A stretch of DNA of 64,000 bases, from contig NZ_OZ034915.1 in the NCBI RefSeq assembly GCF_964030655.1, forward strand, positions 558,001 through 622,000, given 5' to 3'. The translations under genes were made by a program, and so were the position numbers. This DNA is from Spiroplasma endosymbiont of Poecilobothrus nobilitatus. GTDB lineage: Bacteria > Bacillota_I > Bacilli_A > Mycoplasmatales > Mycoplasmataceae. Numbering within the stretch: the first letter of the stretch is position 1; the number at the start of each line of letters is the position of its first letter. Below the pieces are notes generated by a model. It ran no database searches. It saw only the letters and a list, made by a program, of their open reading frames with translations, and had not been told where the DNA came from. Positions 10,194 to 62,810 of this stretch are shown here, piece by piece.

Positions 10194-10567
10194 GTTCATA
10201 ATTTAAATGACTTCAATACGTAAAATTATCACGAAAAGCATCAAAACTAGCACGACATTTTTTGCATAAATATTTTTGTTTTCCTTCAGGATTATGACCA
10301 TTTTTAACACAATAAAAAGATTGACAATTAGGACATTTAATACCTTTATCCCTAAATTTTTGGTCAATTTCATTTAAGCGTTTTTGTTTTTTAATTAATT
10401 TTGCTTCTTTTTTGACTTTTTCATGAAATTCTAAAAATTGATCATCTGTTAAACTATTTATTAATTCTTCAATTATTTTTTCCATTAATTATTCACCTCT
10501 TATATTAAAAATATACCTAATTTTAGGTATATTTTATAAATACCAAGAGTTTTCTACAAAATTAAAG

Positions 10568-12813: not shown

Positions 12814-12837
12814 AATATACCTAAAATTAGGTATATT
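12814..12837. terminator. Hairpin in the IS-B leader
   Basis: AATATACCTAA, 2-nt loop, TTAGGTATATT: a perfect 11-bp inverted repeat 25 bp before the transposase start and 34 bp inside the element. All five IS-B copies keep it. It could stop transcription entering from outside or hide the ribosome site in read-through RNA. Confidence 0.6.
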
Positions 12838-42720: not shown

Positions 42721-43077
42721 GTCATAGAACGAAATAATCAAATAGAACAAGATACACCCAAAATAATTACCAAAAAATCTAGTGAGGTTCGTTTTGTTTT
42801 TACTAATATTTTGGGTGGAATTGGTTGAGTGGAAGCGATTATTTTTTTAATCGGCCTTGTTATTGTTTTGATAACTATTGCGTTGCTTATAAAAGTGTCG
42901 TTGCTTGCAATGTTTGTTATTGTGTTTGTATTATTGTGGTTAACAATAATTTTGATTGTGCCAAAACGAAATAGTAGTGAAAAAGTTTATCAAGGTATTT
43001 GATGAGCAATTGAGCAATCAAGTATCTTTTTATGCGGAAAAACCGGAATAGTACAGAAATTAAAAATATTAATTTAA
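42721..43077 (+). CDS. VirB3/PrgI-like membrane protein, start codon unclear
   Basis: About 118 residues: charged start (IERNNQIEQDTPKII...), then VRFVFTNILGGIGWVEAII and two long hydrophobic helices, then a short soluble end. Small two-helix proteins before VirB4 are the PrgI/VirB3 pattern. AAGGAG is upstream, but the first codon at 42721 reads GTC; a mutated GTG is possible, so it may be a pseudogene. Overlaps the VirB4-like frame by 46 bp. Confidence 0.5.
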
Positions 43078-45317
43078 TTTCAGATGTTAAAAATAATATG
43101 CTTTATTTTAAAGATAATCGGGTTGCTAAAGTTTGAAAAATTACGGCAAAAGATATTTCGTTGTTGACTCAAAATGATCGAAATAATACTATTTATAACT
43201 TAGCAACTATTTTTAAAACATTGCGTTTAGATTTTGATATTGTCAAAATAGAACAACCATATAATTTTAATGCGCAGTATCAAAATTTAGTTCATGTTTC
43301 TAATAAGTGAGAATTCAATCAAGAAACTAATGCGAGTGTTGAAGAACAGTTATTAAATTATGGTGAACAGTTAAATCAAATTGAAAAAGATATACATTGG
43401 CAAGAAGCAATTTATTATTTAGTTGTGTATGATACAAATTATGAAAGTTTAGAACAACAAACGAAATACATTATTAATAACTATAATGCTGATATTAAAT
43501 TTTATTTAGCAAGTGAAAACGAAATAAAAACTATTATTTATCAGTTAACAAATCCATATTTTAAAGATTATGTTTTACCCAATAAAATAATACAAAAAAG
43601 TAATTATTTACAAGTTGATAATGGTTTTATGGGATTTTTATCGGTTAATTAATTTCCGTTGTTGGTAAATGATAGATGATTATTTAATTTAGGAAATTTA
43701 TTACAAACAAATATACAAATTAAATTACGTGACATATCAGAGCGAGAAAGTATGAAAATGTTAGACAAAGCAATTATGCGGGCTGAAATGCAAGAACCAC
43801 GCAAGGATAGTCAAAATATAAATTATCAGAATTATTTAGAAAATTTTCATACTTTGTTGTAATTGATACAAAATGGAAATGAAATAATAAAAATGGTCTC
43901 AGTTATTTTTACTTGTTATGGGAAAACAAAAGAAGAATTAAATAAAATTGTGAATACTTGTAAAAATCAATTAATTAAAGAACAAATAAAAATTAATCTC
44001 TTAAAGTATCAACAATTAAAATTTTATTTTAGTATTTTTAAAGATAATAAAAAAACTAAACATGTTTATCAAGAAATGGCAACGGTTTCAATTGCAAGTA
44101 GTTATCCGTTTGTATTGCCAACAACAAAAGATAACGGCGGTTTATTGTTGGGGGCGAACGAACATAATTCGCCAGTTATTTTTGATGTTAAACATCGTGA
44201 TAGTTTCCGTAATAGTAGTAATGTTGTTGTGTTTGGTTTAACAGGAAGTGGCAAAACGATGCATGTCAAAAAACAACTTAACTGATTATATTGTAATAAC
44301 GCAAAATTATATATTGTTGACCCTGAGCGTGATTATCATTCATTAGCAAATTACTATGGTGGAGAAATTATCCCTATTGGTAAATCTGGCAGGGCACGAA
44401 TCAACCCGTTAGAAGTGTTTGGAAATGACTTATTAGAACATATTTTATTGTTAGAACAATGATTTAAAATCTTATATCCAACATTACAAATAAGGGATGT
44501 TGCGGAATGACAAAAAACTTTATTAGCAGTTTATAAAGCAAAGAAAATCACACCGAAAACCGATTTTACAAAATTATCAGCAAAAGATTATCCAATTTTA
44601 ACAGATTTATATAACTATAATGAAAAACAAGAAAAAGACAAAGAACATAAATCAACCCTAAACTCTGTATTATGAAAGTTAACGCAAGGAGCGGATGGTT
44701 ACTTGTGAAATGGGGTAAGTACTTTATTGTTAAAAAGTGATTTAATTGTTTTTGATACCCACGAATTAACAGCAAACAAAAATCGGCAAAATGCTCAGTT
44801 GTTTTTAATGCTAGCGTTTTTAGATAAAGAAGTTAAGAAAAATAAAGAAAAAAATGAAACACTGCCAATTGCGGAGCAACAATGAATTTGTATTGCCATT
44901 GATGAATCCCACTTGTTGATTAATGAAAACAATGCCTTGGCGTTGAATTTTTTGTTTGAAATGACAAAGCGGATTCGAAAATATAACGGTATTTTATATA
45001 TTATTACGCAAAACATCGCCGACTTTATGGGTAACGCAAACATTAAAACCCAATCGTAAGGAATAATAAACAATTGTTTATATCAGTTTGTTCATCATTT
45101 AGCGCCAAGTGATTTAAGCGATTATGATGATTTAATTTCAGCTAGTGTAAGATTAAATCAATATCAAAAAGATATTATCGCTAGTGCGCCGGCGGGTGTT
45201 TGTTTGTTTACAATCGGGAGTAATCAACGTACAATTATTAATATTAAAACAAACCCAATTGAAATAAAAGCAATTGGGAATAATCGCGAAAAAGGCGAAT
45301 TCAAAATAAATATATAA
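43032..45317 (+). pseudogene. VirB4/TraE-type conjugation ATPase, broken by stops
   Basis: A single frame of 761 codons. Walker A VVVFGLTGSGKTMHVKK (about residue 405) and Walker B WICIAIDESHLLI (about 620), followed by TKRIRKYNGILYIITQNIADF, are VirB4 hallmarks. It would power T4SS assembly and substrate transfer at the membrane. Three premature stops: after GFLSVN (43650), after NFHTLL (43860) and after ANIKTQS (45057). No frameshift. The stops separate the N-terminal domain from the ATPase and remove the end of the motor, so it is dead. Confidence 0.88.
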
Positions 45318-45353: not shown

Positions 45354-46589
45354 ATGAAAAAATTACTAAGTATATTAGGAGCAGTTAGTTTAACTGCAAC
45401 TGTAGCAAACAATTTCGTTGCTTGCGGTGCTGTAAAAACAAGAAAAAACAAACAAAGTGAAATTGATGATTTTAAACAACAATTAAAAGACAAACAAAGT
45501 GAAATTGATAGTTTAACAACATCTAAAACTAATTTAGAAAATGATAAAAAACAGTTAGCACAAAATTTACAAAACAAACAAATTGAAATTGATAGTTTAA
45601 CAACATCTAAAACTAATTTAGAAAATGATAAAAAACAGTTAGCACAAAATTTACAAAACAAACAAAGTGAAATTGATAGTTTAACAACATCTAAAACTAA
45701 TTTAGAAAATGATAAAAAACAGTTAGCACAAAATTTACAAAACAAACAAAGTGAAATTGATAGTTTAACAACATCTAAAACTAATTTAGAAAATGATAAA
45801 AAACAGTTAGCACAAAATTTACAAAACAAACAAATTGAAATTGATAGTTTAACAACATCTAAAACTAATTTAGAAAATGATAAAAAACAGTTAGCACAAA
45901 ATTTACAAAACAAACAAAGTGAAATTGATGATTTTAAACAACAATTAAAAGACAAACAAAGTGAAATTGATGATTTTAAACAACAATTAAAAGACAAACA
46001 AAGTGAAATTGATAGTTTAAACAATAATTTAAATAGGATAAAAAATAGTAATATAAAATTATTAAATGAAAAAATAGAAATGCAACAAAAAATCGATAAG
46101 ATAAATGCAGATAAAAAAAGTGAAATTGATGATTTTAAACAACAATTAAAAGACAAACAAAGTGAAATAGAAGAATTAAAAAAATCTATAACAAATGAAG
46201 AAATAATACGATTAAGAAAACAAGTTAATTTACAAAAAATAGATATAAGTAAATTTAATTTAACACAATTTACAATAGGCGTAATTGATATTTCAAAAAA
46301 ACAAATTGATAAAAATAATAATATTTATGTTGATGAAAATAAAATTAAAAAAGTTTTGAATAAACCTATTTTAAAACAATTGCAAGAAAAAGTTGATAGT
46401 TCTTTAACTGATAATGATTTTAATTTATTAATTCATGGGAATAATTCACTTATTGTTAATGGACTTGCATTTGTTGATCTAACATTTTCAAAAAAAATAA
46501 AAATAAAAATTAAGGGTATTAATAGAGCAAGAGAAGAAACCGGCTGACTAGATATTGATTTGCCTGCCGCAAGCTTAATTAATGATTAA
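45354..46589 (+). CDS. Coiled-coil lipoprotein with heptad-based tandem repeats
   Basis: 411 residues. Lipoprotein signal (MKKLLSILGAVSLTA...) with lipobox VACG, so lipid-anchored outside the cell at about Cys25. After that come five 28-residue repeats (KQSEIDSLTTSKTNLENDKK and 8 more), plus 14-residue units KQSEIDDFKQQLKD; 28 and 14 are four and two heptads, so a long rod is expected. The last 130 residues (RLRKQVNLQKIDISKFN...) form a different domain of unknown role. Ribosome site GGAGGAAT. Lies between VirB4 and the mob gene. A spacer or pair-stabilising role is a guess. Confidence 0.85.
45492..45911 (+). repeat. Five 84-bp tandem repeats inside the lipoprotein gene
   Basis: Units start at 45492, 45576, 45660, 45744 and 45828, nearly identical in DNA (most differences are AGT against ATT in the second Ser/Ile codon). 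Two 42-bp units follow at 45912-45995. Each unit keeps the frame, so changes in copy number alter length without loss of frame. Confidence 0.92.
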
Positions 46590-46647
46590 TTTTAAAAAAA
46601 GATTTTATTTTAATACAATTTATTTATTAAAACCATCTTTTTTATTT

Positions 46648-46672
46648 TAAGGTATAATGCGTTTATACCTTA
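46648..46672 (+). promoter_or_regulatory. Candidate oriT for the MobV relaxase
   Basis: TAAGGTATAA, spacer TGCGT, TTATACCTTA: a perfect 10-bp inverted repeat 70 bp before the mob start. It resembles the pMV158 oriT (stem TAAAGTATA, loop with GTGTG, TATACTTTA), where MobM nicks after TAGTGTG. Here the equivalent would be TAATGCG with cleavage before TTTATACC. The resemblance is from memory and not tested. Confidence 0.6.
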
Positions 46673-46742
46673 GAAAATTTAAATAATAAAATAAATAACT
46701 ATCAATATAAAAATAACCATATCAAAAATAACCTAGAGGGGG

Positions 46743-47990
46743 ATGACTTCTATGCAGAACAACACTATTGGAAAGAAAAAACGAGCAACTTTTTATTGTA
46801 CAGTATCACGAAACAAAAAAATCAACGGAAACTATAAACTCCAAAAAATGATGCAACACTTTATTAAAAAACACAACCCCAATAAATACAACAATTATAA
46901 TAAAATAACACAGTTATTTTATCAACCAAACAATAAAACATATAGTCAATATATTATTAATAATTTTAACTATTTACTAAAACAAAATACACGCCATAAA
47001 ACAAATTATAAGTTATCTGTAGCGCCAAATTTAAGAAAAGTTTCGTTAGAAAAGTTGCACAGTGGTATTCCAATTGAACAACTACGCGCTAGCAAAAACG
47101 ATGTTTATAAAAATGAAAACATTGACAACAATAAAACATATCTGAATGAATATATGTTTCGTGATGAAAATAATAACTGAGTAATTAAGAAAAACAATGA
47201 TTTAAGCAGAGAAGATAAAATCAACATTATCAATTGCGATAACCAATGATACCGCCAACAATTAAAAGAGGCATACGAAAAAGGGCTGAACAAGTCAATT
47301 ACAGTAAAATCTATCGTTAAAGCCGATAATGTGATCACCTTTACAAGAATAAGTTTATTAAAGCAAGGAATGACACCTAAAAATGTTGATATTATCCAAA
47401 AAGAATGAATTACCACTGTTAAAAATTATCTAATTAAAGATTTGGGAGAAGACTTACGCGGAATTTACTTACACATGGACGAAACAAACCCTCATTTTCA
47501 TTATCATTTTCTACCACGCAACCGTGAGCAAACAATTACTCGTGATATGAAAAACGGACAAGAAAGGGCGCAAATTCACCCCAAGGGTAAAATTGGTTCG
47601 AAAGGAATTATTACTAAACAACGGTTAATAAAAACCAATAATGACTTACGCGAATTATTTAATCAAAACCCAGTTTTAAAAAATATTGATTGAAGCCGAT
47701 TAAATAAATACGAACTTGCTTTAACTCGTGAAGGTCATTATGATAATGAAGATTTACATACTTATAAACGTGTTGAAAGATTAAAAGAAACATTACCTTA
47801 TGCTCGCCAACGTGAATATGAAGAAACTTTTAAAACAATGACAAACGAAGAGTTAGGGGTTTGTATTAAAAACATTAAAGAAGAAGCAAACTGAAAACTA
47901 AGCGCCATCAACAAAATAACCAACCAACGACAACAAAACAAAGAATATGAATTAGAAATAACACGCGAAAGAACAAAAACAGACAAATAA
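46743..47990 (+). CDS. mob: MobV-family (Pre/Mob) relaxase, intact
   Basis: 415 residues, four TGA-Trp codons, no disruption. Metal-binding motif IYLHMDETNPHFHYHFLP (about residues 239-256) matches the HxDE...PHxH signature of MobV enzymes, with VTFTRISLLKQGMTP upstream. It would nick the oriT strand and pilot single-stranded DNA. The start at 46743 follows AGAGGGGGA. C-terminal end is a charged helical segment. The only core conjugation gene of this element that remains whole. Confidence 0.88.
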
Positions 47991-48019: not shown

Positions 48020-50038
48020 ATGAATAAAAACGGTTGAATGCTTTTTAAACAAGATATTCGTAAATTATTAAGAATAATATTATATTTTTTATTATTCCCC
48101 TACTACGTATTTTTTGCTTGACCGTGAAAATATAGTAAAACAAAAACAATTGATGATAAAAACGACCCAATGGACTACATCATTAAATTTGTTTGTTTTT
48201 TACCATTAATAATTTGTATAATAATAACAATTGTATTTTTAGGAGTTGGTTATTTTAAATTAAAAACAATTAATATTTATCAGTGAAAATATATTTTTAT
48301 TTGATTAATACCGCGCTTTCTTTTTCAAGGTATCTGTCATTTAATTTTATTAAAGTTAGGAAAAAATAATAAAAAGAAATGATTACAACATTATTATAAT
48401 TTTTGAAATAATCAAAAAAGTAAAAAATTGTCTGATCAATTAGCTAGCGGAAGATTAATGACCGAAAAAGAAAGCAACAATATTTTTACAACAATATTAT
48501 GAAACAAAAATAATGTTCTTGTTTATAACAATGAAAATAACCATGATATTGGTTTTATTGTTAATACTAATTTAAAACAAAATAATAGTGTTTTAGAATA
48601 TAAAATTATCAACGATATCGGACATAGTATTCTCATTGGTTCAACTCTGAGCGGTAAAACATCACTTATTATTAATCCGCAAATCCAAACCTTTGCTAAA
48701 AGTAGCATTCAACCAACAATGATAATCACCCGACCCCAAGGGCGAACTTTATAAACTGCATGGTACAAATTTAAAATCACAAGGGGTTATCAAATTTTTA
48801 AATTAGATTTGCGCAACGAAAATAGTGATTTTTGAAATCCGCTAGAAGAAGTTTGACACCAATGATAAGTTAGAAATCCTAATAAAAAAGAGAATATTGA
48901 ACTTGAAAGCGTTCGTAATCAAGCGCAAGATAAAATTGTTAAAATTATTGATATGATAATCCCATAAAGCAACGATAGTATTTGAAGTAATGGTGCTAAA
49001 AAAATATTAGAAGGAATAATTTTAGCAATGTTAGAACAAGCAGAATGAGATAATAATATAACCTTAGATAAGTTTAATTTTGCTAATATTCAATACAACT
49101 TAAATAGCGCGACTTATGAAAACTTAAATCATTATTTAGATAGTATTGAAACAAAAAGCAAAGAATTAAATTATCTTAGTCGGGTAATTGAAGTGTGTTG
49201 ATCTACCATTCGTGGGGAACAAAAAACAACGGAAGGAATTATTCAACAGTTAGCCAGTTCATTGATTGTTTTTGCTCAGTCAAAAATAAAAAATATTACT
49301 GCTAAAACAACAATTAAATTTGATAACAATGTTCCACAAGCAATATTTATTATTTTTCCTGATGAAGAAAAAAGAACCTATGAATTTATTTCCCTATTTA
49401 TTACTGAAACTTAAAGCAAATTAATTAATGATCTTGATAAAAGCAATATTGCAAAATATCATCGTCCAATTTACTATATTTTAGATGAATTTGGTAATTT
49501 TCCTAAAATACCCGTGATTAACCAAATGATAAGTATTGCAAGTGGTCGTAATATTCATTTTATGCTTGTCGTTCAGTCAATCGCCCAACTTGGCGAAAAA
49601 TACAATATTGCCACAAGAAACAATATTATTGCCAATATCACATACAAATATTATTTAATGAGCGGAAACAGTGAAACCCGCGAAACAATCGCTCGTGAAA
49701 TGGGATATACCGAAATCACCATTCAATCAACAAGCGAAAGTTTTACCAAGCAAAACAATATGCTTGGCGGGATTGCGTTATCACAAAATAAAACCAAACG
49801 CGAAGTTATGAGCGCCGAAGAATTAGCAACCCTTCCCTTTGGAAGCGCTGTTATTATTTAGCAACGCAACAAACCTTATTTAACTACTTTTGCTAACTTT
49901 TGAGATTTTACGCAATTTAAACCAAGTAAACAAATAACTAATGTCAAAAGTGCGACACTAAGTCGAGAACAAATCTTATATAATTTTATGCAGGCACAAA
50001 ACAACAACGCAACCAATGAAAAATTATATTTAGAATAG
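48020..50038 (+). pseudogene. VirD4/TraG-type coupling ATPase, broken
   Basis: Frame of 672 codons. N-terminal membrane helices (about residues 14-35, 53-75 and 91-112), Walker A GHSILIGSTLSGKTSL (about 200-215) and Walker B PIYYILDEFGNFPKIP (about 485-500) with MISIASGRNIHFMLVVQS after it identify a coupling protein. Premature stops occur near 48871, 48964, 49411 and 49859. Between about 48730 and 48795 the frame slips and returns (DPKGELYKLHGTN readable only in +1). Would deliver DNA to the T4SS; not functional now. Confidence 0.88.
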
Positions 50039-50099
50039 AGAAAAGAAGAAGAATTATTTTTTAATTATCATAAATACTTTAAAATTAATTAAAGTATTT

Positions 50100-51242
50100 T
50101 TTTAATTTTGTAGAAAACTCTTTATGAAATAAAAAAAATCATCAATATGATAACTTTAAAAGAAAATTATATAAACTTTTAATATTGTTATTTAACTTTT
50201 TTATACGTTAAAATATAATACCGATGATTGTTGGTTTGGCGTTAAACCTTTATGCTGGTATTTTCATTTTCAGAGATTTAAATAATTTTGAATGTTCGTG
50301 AAACCTAAGCCATGATAATGAATTAAGGATTCTTTAAGATTTGATTGTAATTTACTAATTTTATTTAACTTCTGATAACTAGCATCAGGATTTGTACTAG
50401 TTTTAGTTGCTAATAAAATAAAATTTGTTTGTTTTGCTACTAATAAATATAATGGTTGCATGTCAGAAATAATAATTGAATTTTCTTTGATTAATTGTTT
50501 ATTAATATTTTCAATAATTCACTGTTTTTGTAATCGTTTTGTGTTGGTTGATTTAACATAAATATTATTATTGCTATCAACAGCCATTTGAACACAACAT
50601 TTAGTGTTGGTTGAAAATGAATCAAGATGAATTTTTCTTTTATCAAATTTATCTTTAAAATTACCTTTGTGGATTTCTTTAATAAATGTTTCATCGATTT
50701 GAATTTGGCCATTTAATGTTTTAAATTTTAATTGGGTGTTTTCTAATTGTTTTGATTTCATTATTTTTTGGCGATTATATCAAGCGGTTTTCGGTGATGT
50801 TTTAATAAAGTGGGAAATCATTTTACTAGATTGGCCTAATAATGAAATTTGAATCAATAAATTTCACTGTTCATAATTTAAATGACTTCAATACGTAAAA
50901 TGATCACGAAAAGCATCAAAACTAGCACGACATTTTTTGCATAAATATTTTTGTTTTCCTTCAGGATTATGACCATTTTTAACACAATAAAAAGATTGAC
51001 AATTAGGACATTTAATACCTTTATCCCTAAATTTTTGATCAATTTCATTTAAGCGTTTTTGTTTTTTAATTAATTCTGCTTCTTTTTTGACTTTTTCATT
51101 AAATTCTAAAAATTGATCATCTGTTAAACTATTTATTAATTCTTCAATTATTTTTTCCATTAATTATTCACCTCTTATATTAAAAATATACCTAATTTTA
51201 GGTATATTTTATAAATATCAAGAGTTTTCTACAAAATTAAAG
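50100..51242 (-). mobile_element. IS-B copy B3, intact
   Basis: 1143 bp, 8-bp duplication AAGTATTT at 50092-50099 and 51243-51250. Inserted after the coupling-protein gene. Confidence 0.94.
50201..51160 (-). CDS. IS-B transposase, intact (copy B3)
   Basis: 319 residues with all elements of copy B2: zinc ribbon, HTH and IDETFIK core. A few substitutions (for example FNEKV for FHEKV). One of two intact IS-B transposases in the window. Confidence 0.88.
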
Positions 51243-58863: not shown

Positions 58864-60006
58864 CTTTAATTTTGTAGAAAACTATTGATATTTATAAAAT
58901 ATACCTAAAATTAGGTATATTTTTAATATAAGAGGTGAATAATTAATGGAAAAAATAATTGAAGAATTAATAAATAGTTTAACATATGATCAATTTTTAT
59001 AATTTCATTAAAAAGTCAAAAAAGAAGCAGAATTAATTAAAAAACAAAAACGCTTAAATGAAATTGATCAAAAATTTATGGATAAAGGTATTAAATGCCC
59101 TAATTGTCAATCTTTTTATTGTGTTAAAAATGGTCATAATCCTGAAGGAAAACAAAAATATTTATGCAAAAAATGTCGTGCTAGTTTTGATGCTTTTCGT
59201 GATCATTTTACGTATTGAAGTCATTTAAATTATGAACAGTGAAATTTATTGATTCAAATTTCATTATTAGGGCAATCTAGTAAAATGATTTCCCACTTTA
59301 TTAAAACATCACCGAAAACCGCTTGATATAATCGCCAAAAAATAATGAAATCAAAACAATTAGAAAACACCCAATTAAAATTTAAAACGTTAAATGGCCA
59401 AATTCAAATCGATGAAACATTTATTAAAGAAATCCACAAAGGTAATTTTAAAGATAAATTTGATAAAAGAAAAATTCATCTTGATTCATTTTCAACCAAC
59501 ACTAAATGTTATGTTCAAATGGCTGTTGATAGCAATAATAATATTTATGTTAAATCAACCAACACAAAACGATTACAAAAACAGTGAATTATTGAAAATA
59601 TTAATAAACAATTAATCAAAGAAAATTCAATTATTATTTCTGACATGCAACCATTATATTTATTAGTAGCAAAACAAACAAATTCTATTTTATTAGCAAC
59701 TAAAACTAGTACAAATCCTGATGCTAGTTATCGGAAGTTAAATAAAATTAGTAAATTACAATCAAATCTTAAAGAAACCTTAATTCATTATCATGGCTTA
59801 GGTTTCACGAACATTCAAAATTATTTAAATCTCTGAAAATGAAAATACCAGCATAAAGGTTTAACGCCAAACCAACAATCATCGGTATTATATTTTAACG
59901 TATAAAAAAGTTAAATAACAATATTAAAATTTTATATAATTTTCTTTTAAAGTTATCATATTGATGATTTTTTTTATTTCATCAAGAGTTTTCTACAAAA
60001 TTAAAA
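58864..60006 (+). mobile_element. IS-B copy B4, full length
   Basis: 1143 bp with both ends, but flanks differ (TGCTTTCAAC on the left, ATCTAATTTA on the right), so no target duplication remains. Confidence 0.92.
58946..59905 (+). pseudogene. IS-B transposase, copy B4 (two stops)
   Basis: DDQFLEFHEKVKK reads YDQFL, stop, FH, stop, KVKK: two GAA to TAA changes and one GAT to TAT within about 30 bases. The rest is intact. Confidence 0.88.
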
Positions 60007-61668: not shown

Positions 61669-62810
61669 CTTTAATTTTGTAGAAAACTCTTGATATTTAT
61701 AAAATATACCTAAAATTAGGTATATTCTTAATATAAGAGGTGAATAATTAATGGAAAAAATAATTGAAGAATTAATAAATAGTTTAACAGATGATTAATT
61801 TTTAGAATTTCATGAAAAAGTCAAAAAAGAAGCAGAATTAATTAAAAAATAAAACGCTTAAATGAAATTGATCAAAAATTTAGGGATAAAGGTATTAAAT
61901 GTCCTAATTGTCAATCTTTTTATTGTGTTAAAAATGGTCATAATCCTGAAGGAAAACAAAAATATTTATGCAAAAAATGTCGTGCTAGTTTTGATGCTTT
62001 TCGTGATCATTTTACGTATTGAAGTCATTTAAATTATGAACAGTGAAATTTATTGATTCAAATTTCATTATTAGGCCAATCTAGTAAAATGATTTCCCAC
62101 TTTATTAAAACATCACCGAAAACCGCTTGATATAATCGCCAAAAAATAATGAAATCAAAACAATTAGAAAATACCCAATTAAAATTTAAAAAGTTAAATG
62201 GCCAAATTAAAATCGATGAAACATTTATTAAAGAAATCCACAAAGGTAATTTTAAAGATAAATTTGATAAAAGAAAAATTCATCTTGATTCATTTTCAAC
62301 CAACACTAAATGTTGTATTCAAATGGCTGTTGATAGCAATAATAATATTTATGTTAAATCAACCAACACAAAACGATTACAAAAACAGTGAATTATTGAA
62401 AATATTAATAAACAATTAATCAAAGAAAATTCAATTATTATTTCTGACATGCAACCATTATATTTATTAGTAGCAAAACAAACAAATTATATTTTATTAG
62501 CAACTAAAACTAGTACAAATCCTGATGCTAGTTATCGGAAGTTAAATAAAATTAGTAAATTACAATCAAATCTTAAAGAATCCTCAATTCATTATCATTG
62601 CTTAGGTTTCACGAACATTCAAAATTATTTAAATCTCTGAAAATGAAAATACCAGAATAAAGGTTTAACGCCAAACCAACAATCATCGGTATTATATTTT
62701 AACGTATAAAAAAGTTAAATAACAATATTAAAAGTTTATATAATTTTCTTTTAAAGTTATCATATTGATGATTTTTTTTATTTCATCAAGAGTTTTCTAC
62801 AAAATTAAAA
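61669..62810 (+). mobile_element. IS-B copy B5, full length
   Basis: 1142 bp with 8-bp duplication ATAAATTT (61661-61668, 62811-62818). Inserted 8 bp after the stop of the 60120 gene and 78 bp before topA. Confidence 0.94.
61751..62710 (+). pseudogene. IS-B transposase, copy B5 (stop and frameshift)
   Basis: TDDQFLEF reads TDD, stop, FLEF (CAA to TAA), and KKQKRLN is lost by CAA to TAA and a missing A near 61850. The remainder is open and matches B2. Confidence 0.88.

Follow-up and report, generated by a model that had tools for sequence, protein, structure and literature searches.

The nick sequence of plasmid pMV158 is GTGTG/TT (PMC5863519), and its minimal oriT covers the 26 nt that precede the nick, IR1 included (PMC8264293, PMC5863519). 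Cleavage by the MobM relaxase takes place through a histidine-mediated attack (PMC8264293). MobM does not bind single-stranded IR2 stably, and shifts the extrusion of hairpins in such a way that the nick is left in single-stranded form (PMC5863519, PMC8264293); when bound to double-stranded IR2, MobM represses mob (PMC5863519). Motif I of the MobV family is HxxR and, for the related MobSag, the nick sequence has been mapped as GTGCG/TT (PMC5090054). In two papers on Spiroplasma plasmids, pSci-type plasmids are reported to have neither a relaxase nor, a putative IncP-like site on pSKU146 aside, any transfer origin (PMC2386487, PMC1318496).

The DNA analyzed here, indicated as the window, is a stretch of 64,000 nucleotides from a Spiroplasma chromosome of 1,434,273 bp. 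At positions 46648-46672 it contains a perfect 10-bp inverted repeat, exactly as a previous sequence-only reading had described it: the left arm, TAAGGTATAA (46648-46657), and the right arm, TTATACCTTA (46663-46672), are separated by the five-base loop TGCGT (46658-46662). The repeat is present in a single copy in the chromosome, with up to three mismatches allowed, and the 25-mer folds at -6.1 kcal/mol, versus -0.5 in shuffled sequences (z -7.5). Perfect 10-bp inverted repeats with loops of 3-8 bases are no rarity in DNA this AT-rich: the window has 17 of them, versus about 3 expected in first-order Markov sequence, several of the 17 being copies of one IS-like palindrome. The stem alone is, for this reason, weak evidence, and the weight rests on the loop core and on the position. 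A terminator reading was rejected, as neither strand features a T-run after the stem.

The loop holds the nick core [G/A]TGNG|T, in the form ATGCG|TT (46657-46663): TGCG|TT equals the corresponding part of the MobSag nick sequence and resembles that of pMV158. By comparison with both, the nick is predicted on the + strand, between G46661 and T46662. The nic-like core delimited from the sequence, the published sites and alignments, TATAATGCGT (46653-46662, + strand; PMC5090054, PMC5863519), includes TATAAT (46653-46658), a -10-like hexamer located inside the repeat, just ahead of mob; a search for a -35 box at a suitable distance from it gave no match. Taken alone, the 10-mer core is unspecific, with 27 occurrences in its own genome. 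Seven bases separate GTATA and TATAC in the window, six in all 20 comparators: the agreement with pMV158 previously claimed for both the TG.G core and the stem spacing holds for the former, but not for the latter, the loop being one base longer.

Comparator hairpins were taken from other bacteria, ahead of MobV genes located on plasmids or in genomes. A covariance model of the MobV nick region, R1, from which the window was excluded, was built with thirteen distinct hairpins, which share the form GTATA-NNNNG[T/C]-TATAC (or GTCTA/TAGAC) and have outer arms that covary; two further loci (L033, L035) were left out, the orientation of their hairpins being unclear. The pMV158 oriT sequence used here was confirmed by identical plasmid sequences. 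When the window was scanned with R1 (filters off), the site obtained the top score, 26.8 bits for the strand of mob and 23.8 bits for the opposite one, the next-best locus scoring 17.3 bits. An oriT on the opposite strand was rejected, given this lower score and no visible hairpin on that side. In its own genome the site is followed by a runner-up at 18.2 bits, and it is the top match over 14 whole Spiroplasma genomes, with an E value of 0.066 per genome, which by itself is not overwhelming. Among 80 further GTDB MobV loci (241 kb), eight reach 26.8 bits or more: all such matches lie directly ahead of mob, the best one of each locus on the mob strand. R1 is regarded as specific, since each of these matches sits at a hairpin just upstream of mob. 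In a joint alignment of 21 sites, 94.4% of the stem cells are paired (80.4% in shuffles), with 22 two-sided changes (6 in shuffles); the window repeat obeys this covariation, its fourth pair being G-C, while it is A-T in pMV158.

The comparison with MobV oriT sequences, proposed as a check by the sequence-only reading, came out in its favor, a window-free model of 13 hairpins ranking the site first in its genome. Rank, specificity, stem covariation and nick-core match make the oriT reading well supported for the IR2/nic element, which may be described as an IR2-equivalent inverted repeat (46648-46672, + strand), with 9-10 bp arms flanking ATGCGTT. The left arm and hairpin of a MobV IR1/IR3 would be expected at 46617-46647 on the + strand, where folding reveals nothing comparable: at -45 to -1 of the nick no stem above chance is found, the best one having 6 bp, a 12-nt loop and -1.2 kcal/mol. 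Of the 17 folded comparators, 16 form a hairpin of -2.5 to -11.1 kcal/mol within the 45 nt preceding the nick, the exception (L064) featuring only a weak IR1. For lack of this hairpin, and with one extra base in its loop, the site corresponds to only the IR2/nic half of such an origin, and is not filed as a pMV158/MOBV1 oriT. What stands of the pMV158-like oriT originally proposed is the stem, the TGNG|T core, the strand and the place ahead of a MobV gene; the IR1/IR3 hairpin and the loop length do not fit. In the preferred reading the site works, or once worked, in the manner of a pMV158/MOBV1 oriT; its present function is doubtful.

Group A of the pMV158/MOBV1 origins shares with the window the palindrome TAA[A/G]GTATA..TATAC[C/T]TTA around [G/A]TGNG|T, the location ahead of mobV on its strand and the overlap with a -10-like element. 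The window differs from it not only in the missing hairpin and in the seven, rather than six, bases between GTATA and TATAC, but also in its chromosomal location and in the lack of a CATGGAAG-type box downstream of the repeat. A chromosomal setting is shared with oriTSag of IMESag-rpsI, as is the core (GTGCG/TT, aTGCG/TT in the window); oriTSag, however, features all three repeats, is functional and belongs to an intact element.

The gene following the repeat (46743-47990, + strand) encodes a MobV-like relaxase of 415 aa, as indicated by Pfam, NCBIfam, a structure model and a motif check, and is the only MobV gene of its genome. Five TGA codons, read as Trp, require the Spiroplasma code (code 4). 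The open frame begins at ATG 46743, 70 bp after the repeat; ATG 46752, located 79 bp after the repeat and 9 nt after a ribosome-binding-like AGAGGGGG (46735-46742, + strand), is the likelier start. Repeat and gene are on the same strand at a distance of 70-79 bp, comparators being found within about 150 bp. The protein scores 28.8 bits with Pfam Mob_Pre, above the cut-off of 25.5 (1.3e-6), and 42.2 bits with NCBIfam MobV, below the cut-off of 100 (9e-11). The HUH motif (motif III, HxDExxPHUH) is complete, as HMDETNPHFH at residues 244-253, and the place of motif II, NY(D/E)L, holds TYLNEYM. HxxR was searched across all 415 residues and is absent, while H..R occupies motif I in 68 of 69 other aligned GTDB MobVs. 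Of the earlier claim of an intact MobV relaxase 70 bp downstream, the open frame, the distance, the Mob_Pre match and the HUH motif are therefore retained, and the intact motif set is not. In a mollicute, a MobV relaxase (MobV4) is also found on pMyBK1 of Mycoplasma yeatsii, which differs from the window in being a small plasmid, with three MobV motifs reported; the main text of that paper does not mention oriT (PMC3541243).

Where motif I should be placed depends on the method. According to a profile built on 25 MobV domains, it falls at E112QLR115, a placement which is uncertain and which superseded SKND, proposed by an early hand alignment; with a profile of 94 MobVs, the E112QLR115 reading scores 47.9 bits, versus 38-43 for constructs using N-terminal histidines. 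MAFFT, on 42 sequences, places Q81NTR84 there, and a structure-led reading allows H39FIK42, in a region where confidence in the model is low. The one firm point is the absence of HxxR anywhere. The attacking histidine of MobM is reportedly that of motif I (Pluta et al. 2017); Glu takes the motif I position also in two natural MobVs of the sample, L035 and L073. An AlphaFold model for which 41 MobV relatives were used reaches moderate confidence (pLDDT 65) and, with MobV sequences in its alignment, finds MobM chains as its best matches, above unrelated rows (Z 10.7, 182 residues, 4.0 A); the single-sequence model (pLDDT 37) is useless. The nucleophile is not fixed by the model, its N-terminal third being too uncertain.

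The site is chromosomal, and lies between a broken virB4 and a broken virD4. Remnants of virB4 (Mbov_0397-family) occupy several frames at 42811-45059 (+ strand), where separate ORFs match NCBIfam VirB4_plasma (7.8e-114 and 3.1e-20). Between them and the repeat, an ORF at 45354-46589 (+ strand) encodes a repetitive lipoprotein, with tandem coiled-coil repeats and a Mollicutes lipoprotein signal; the IR1 arm may have been lost when this ORF was acquired. Directly downstream of mob, virD4/TraG remnants span 48020-49861 (+ strand) in several frames, with a TraG-D_C match (1.9e-19) at 49514-49861. The segment 48443-49992 is 90% identical to pSNTEN_3 (AP029042), a plasmid of the Nesidiocoris tenuis Spiroplasma, in which the mob just upstream has no match; a recombination boundary between mob and virD4 is possible. 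Elsewhere in the window, near-identical palindromes AAAATATACCTAATTTTAGGTATATTTT (or their core) are located at 10508-10535, 12814-12837, 51183-51210, 58896-58923 and 61703-61726; at least one adjoins an IS1595-like transposase ORF (50201-51160), and they are probably IS ends. A sequence at 50080-50200 (roughly 105-125 bp) has about 21 near-identical copies around the genome.

Conservation of the site in pSci plasmids, which had also been suggested as a check, was not observed: neither the site nor the mob gene was found in the pSci and other Spiroplasma plasmids searched, and searches of plasmids, of 320 genomes from the order and of GTDB contigs yielded no orthologue of either. Two weak relaxase matches in other Spiroplasma genomes (L003, L005) were discarded as AT-rich, non-coding stretches interrupted by many stops, near which a TATGATGAGT occurs by chance. 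In plasmids of S. poulsonii and of the symbionts of Nebria and Drosophila atripex, the distance from virB4 to the virD4 after it is about 12 bp or less, with no mob between. Other Spiroplasma chromosomes carry elements in the order Mbov_0399 - virB4 - methyltransferase - MobV - virD4, of which the mob-virD4 order is common to the window and the intact elements. The mob genes of these other Spiroplasma feature HNFR and are preceded, at 60-100 bp, by an IR1 hairpin, TTTTGGC-aaa-GCCAAAA, and then by a TATRATGAG-like core; the TATRATGAG located 60-80 bp before mob in four genomes (G002, G004, G007, G012) is aligned by MAFFT with the window core.

In eight Spiroplasma-group loci (L006, L008, L009, L015, L020-L023), an oriT-like arrangement in the 300 bp ahead of mob is followed by mob and virD4, and IR1 overlaps a wider repeat, GCCAAAA...TTTTGGC, around the TATRATGAG-like core; no published description of these regions was found. 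They resemble the window in the core 60-80 bp before mob and in virD4 after it, and differ from it in the presence of IR1, a long-loop IR2 and HNFR as motif I, their relaxases being only about 25% identical to that of the window.

Taken together, these data suggest that the repeat is probably the IR2/nic element of a MobV-type oriT, belonging to the adjacent mob within a decayed conjugative (ICE- or pSci-like) element. A purely fortuitous inverted repeat, in AT-rich DNA that happens to precede mob, is very improbable: the excess of 10-bp repeats and the E value leave room for coincidence, but the best match genome-wide would also need to fall less than 100 bp from the only MobV gene, on its strand, and E value, position and strand combined lower the probability, by our own estimate, to about 1e-5 or less. 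A repeat acting solely as an operator/promoter palindrome, overlapping the mob promoter and bound by Mob or another repressor without nicking, is rather unlikely. In its favor, TATAAT lies inside the repeat, MobM binding to duplex IR2 represses mob, and what remains without IR1 is exactly the part used by MobM for autoregulation. Moreover, in sister Spiroplasma genomes GTATA..TATAC palindromes, such as GTATAATTATAC, are found at promoters of unrelated genes and reach 22-24.6 bits with R1. Yet the site scores above all of these, no -35 box is found at a suitable distance, and the loop keeps TGCG|T, matching nick sites, which an operator does not need. In six loci (L078, L079, L080, L082, L083, L084), at about position 1501, GTATA..TATAC palindromes with TATAAT-like hexamers precede unrelated genes; such palindromes are possible operators.

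A functional, compact MobV oriT, in which IR2 alone suffices, the nucleophile is displaced or is not a histidine, and other Spiroplasma transfer genes provide mobilization in trans, appears improbable. The open frame of 415 aa with its complete HUH motif, the Glu at motif I in L035 and L073, and the weak IR1 of L064 are in line with it; but IR1 belongs to the minimal pMV158 oriT, 16 of 17 comparators have a hairpin at its place, L073 keeps a 10-bp IR1 in spite of its Glu, and the adjoining virB4 and virD4 are broken.

For the preferred reading, an IR2/nic element in a decayed element, the ancestral relaxase would have bound the palindrome and, upon melting of the supercoiled DNA, cut the + strand in the loop, at G46661|T46662. 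Since the palindrome carries the -10-like TATAAT just ahead of the gene, a relaxase bound to its duplex form would in addition keep mob repressed, in the way of MobM and the pMV158 IR2; by this analogy, the palindrome is probably also the mob operator. Efficient initiation of transfer at present seems doubtful: the IR1/IR3 hairpin is absent, the relaxase has no motif I, and VirB4 and VirD4 are no longer intact.

As the locus looks decayed, its own value is modest: the repeat is possibly a relic, or no more than a regulatory site of mob. The compact oriT, if real, would be a minimal origin at work in a wall-less bacterium, and would imply that catalysis within MobV can depend on another residue. 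The MobV relaxase of the window with its nic hairpin and the MobV-oriT-like regions of several other Spiroplasma genomes, taken together, suggest that MobV is one transfer system, at least, of the genus, and the nic hairpin and MobV-oriT-like regions are short sequences, open to direct testing.
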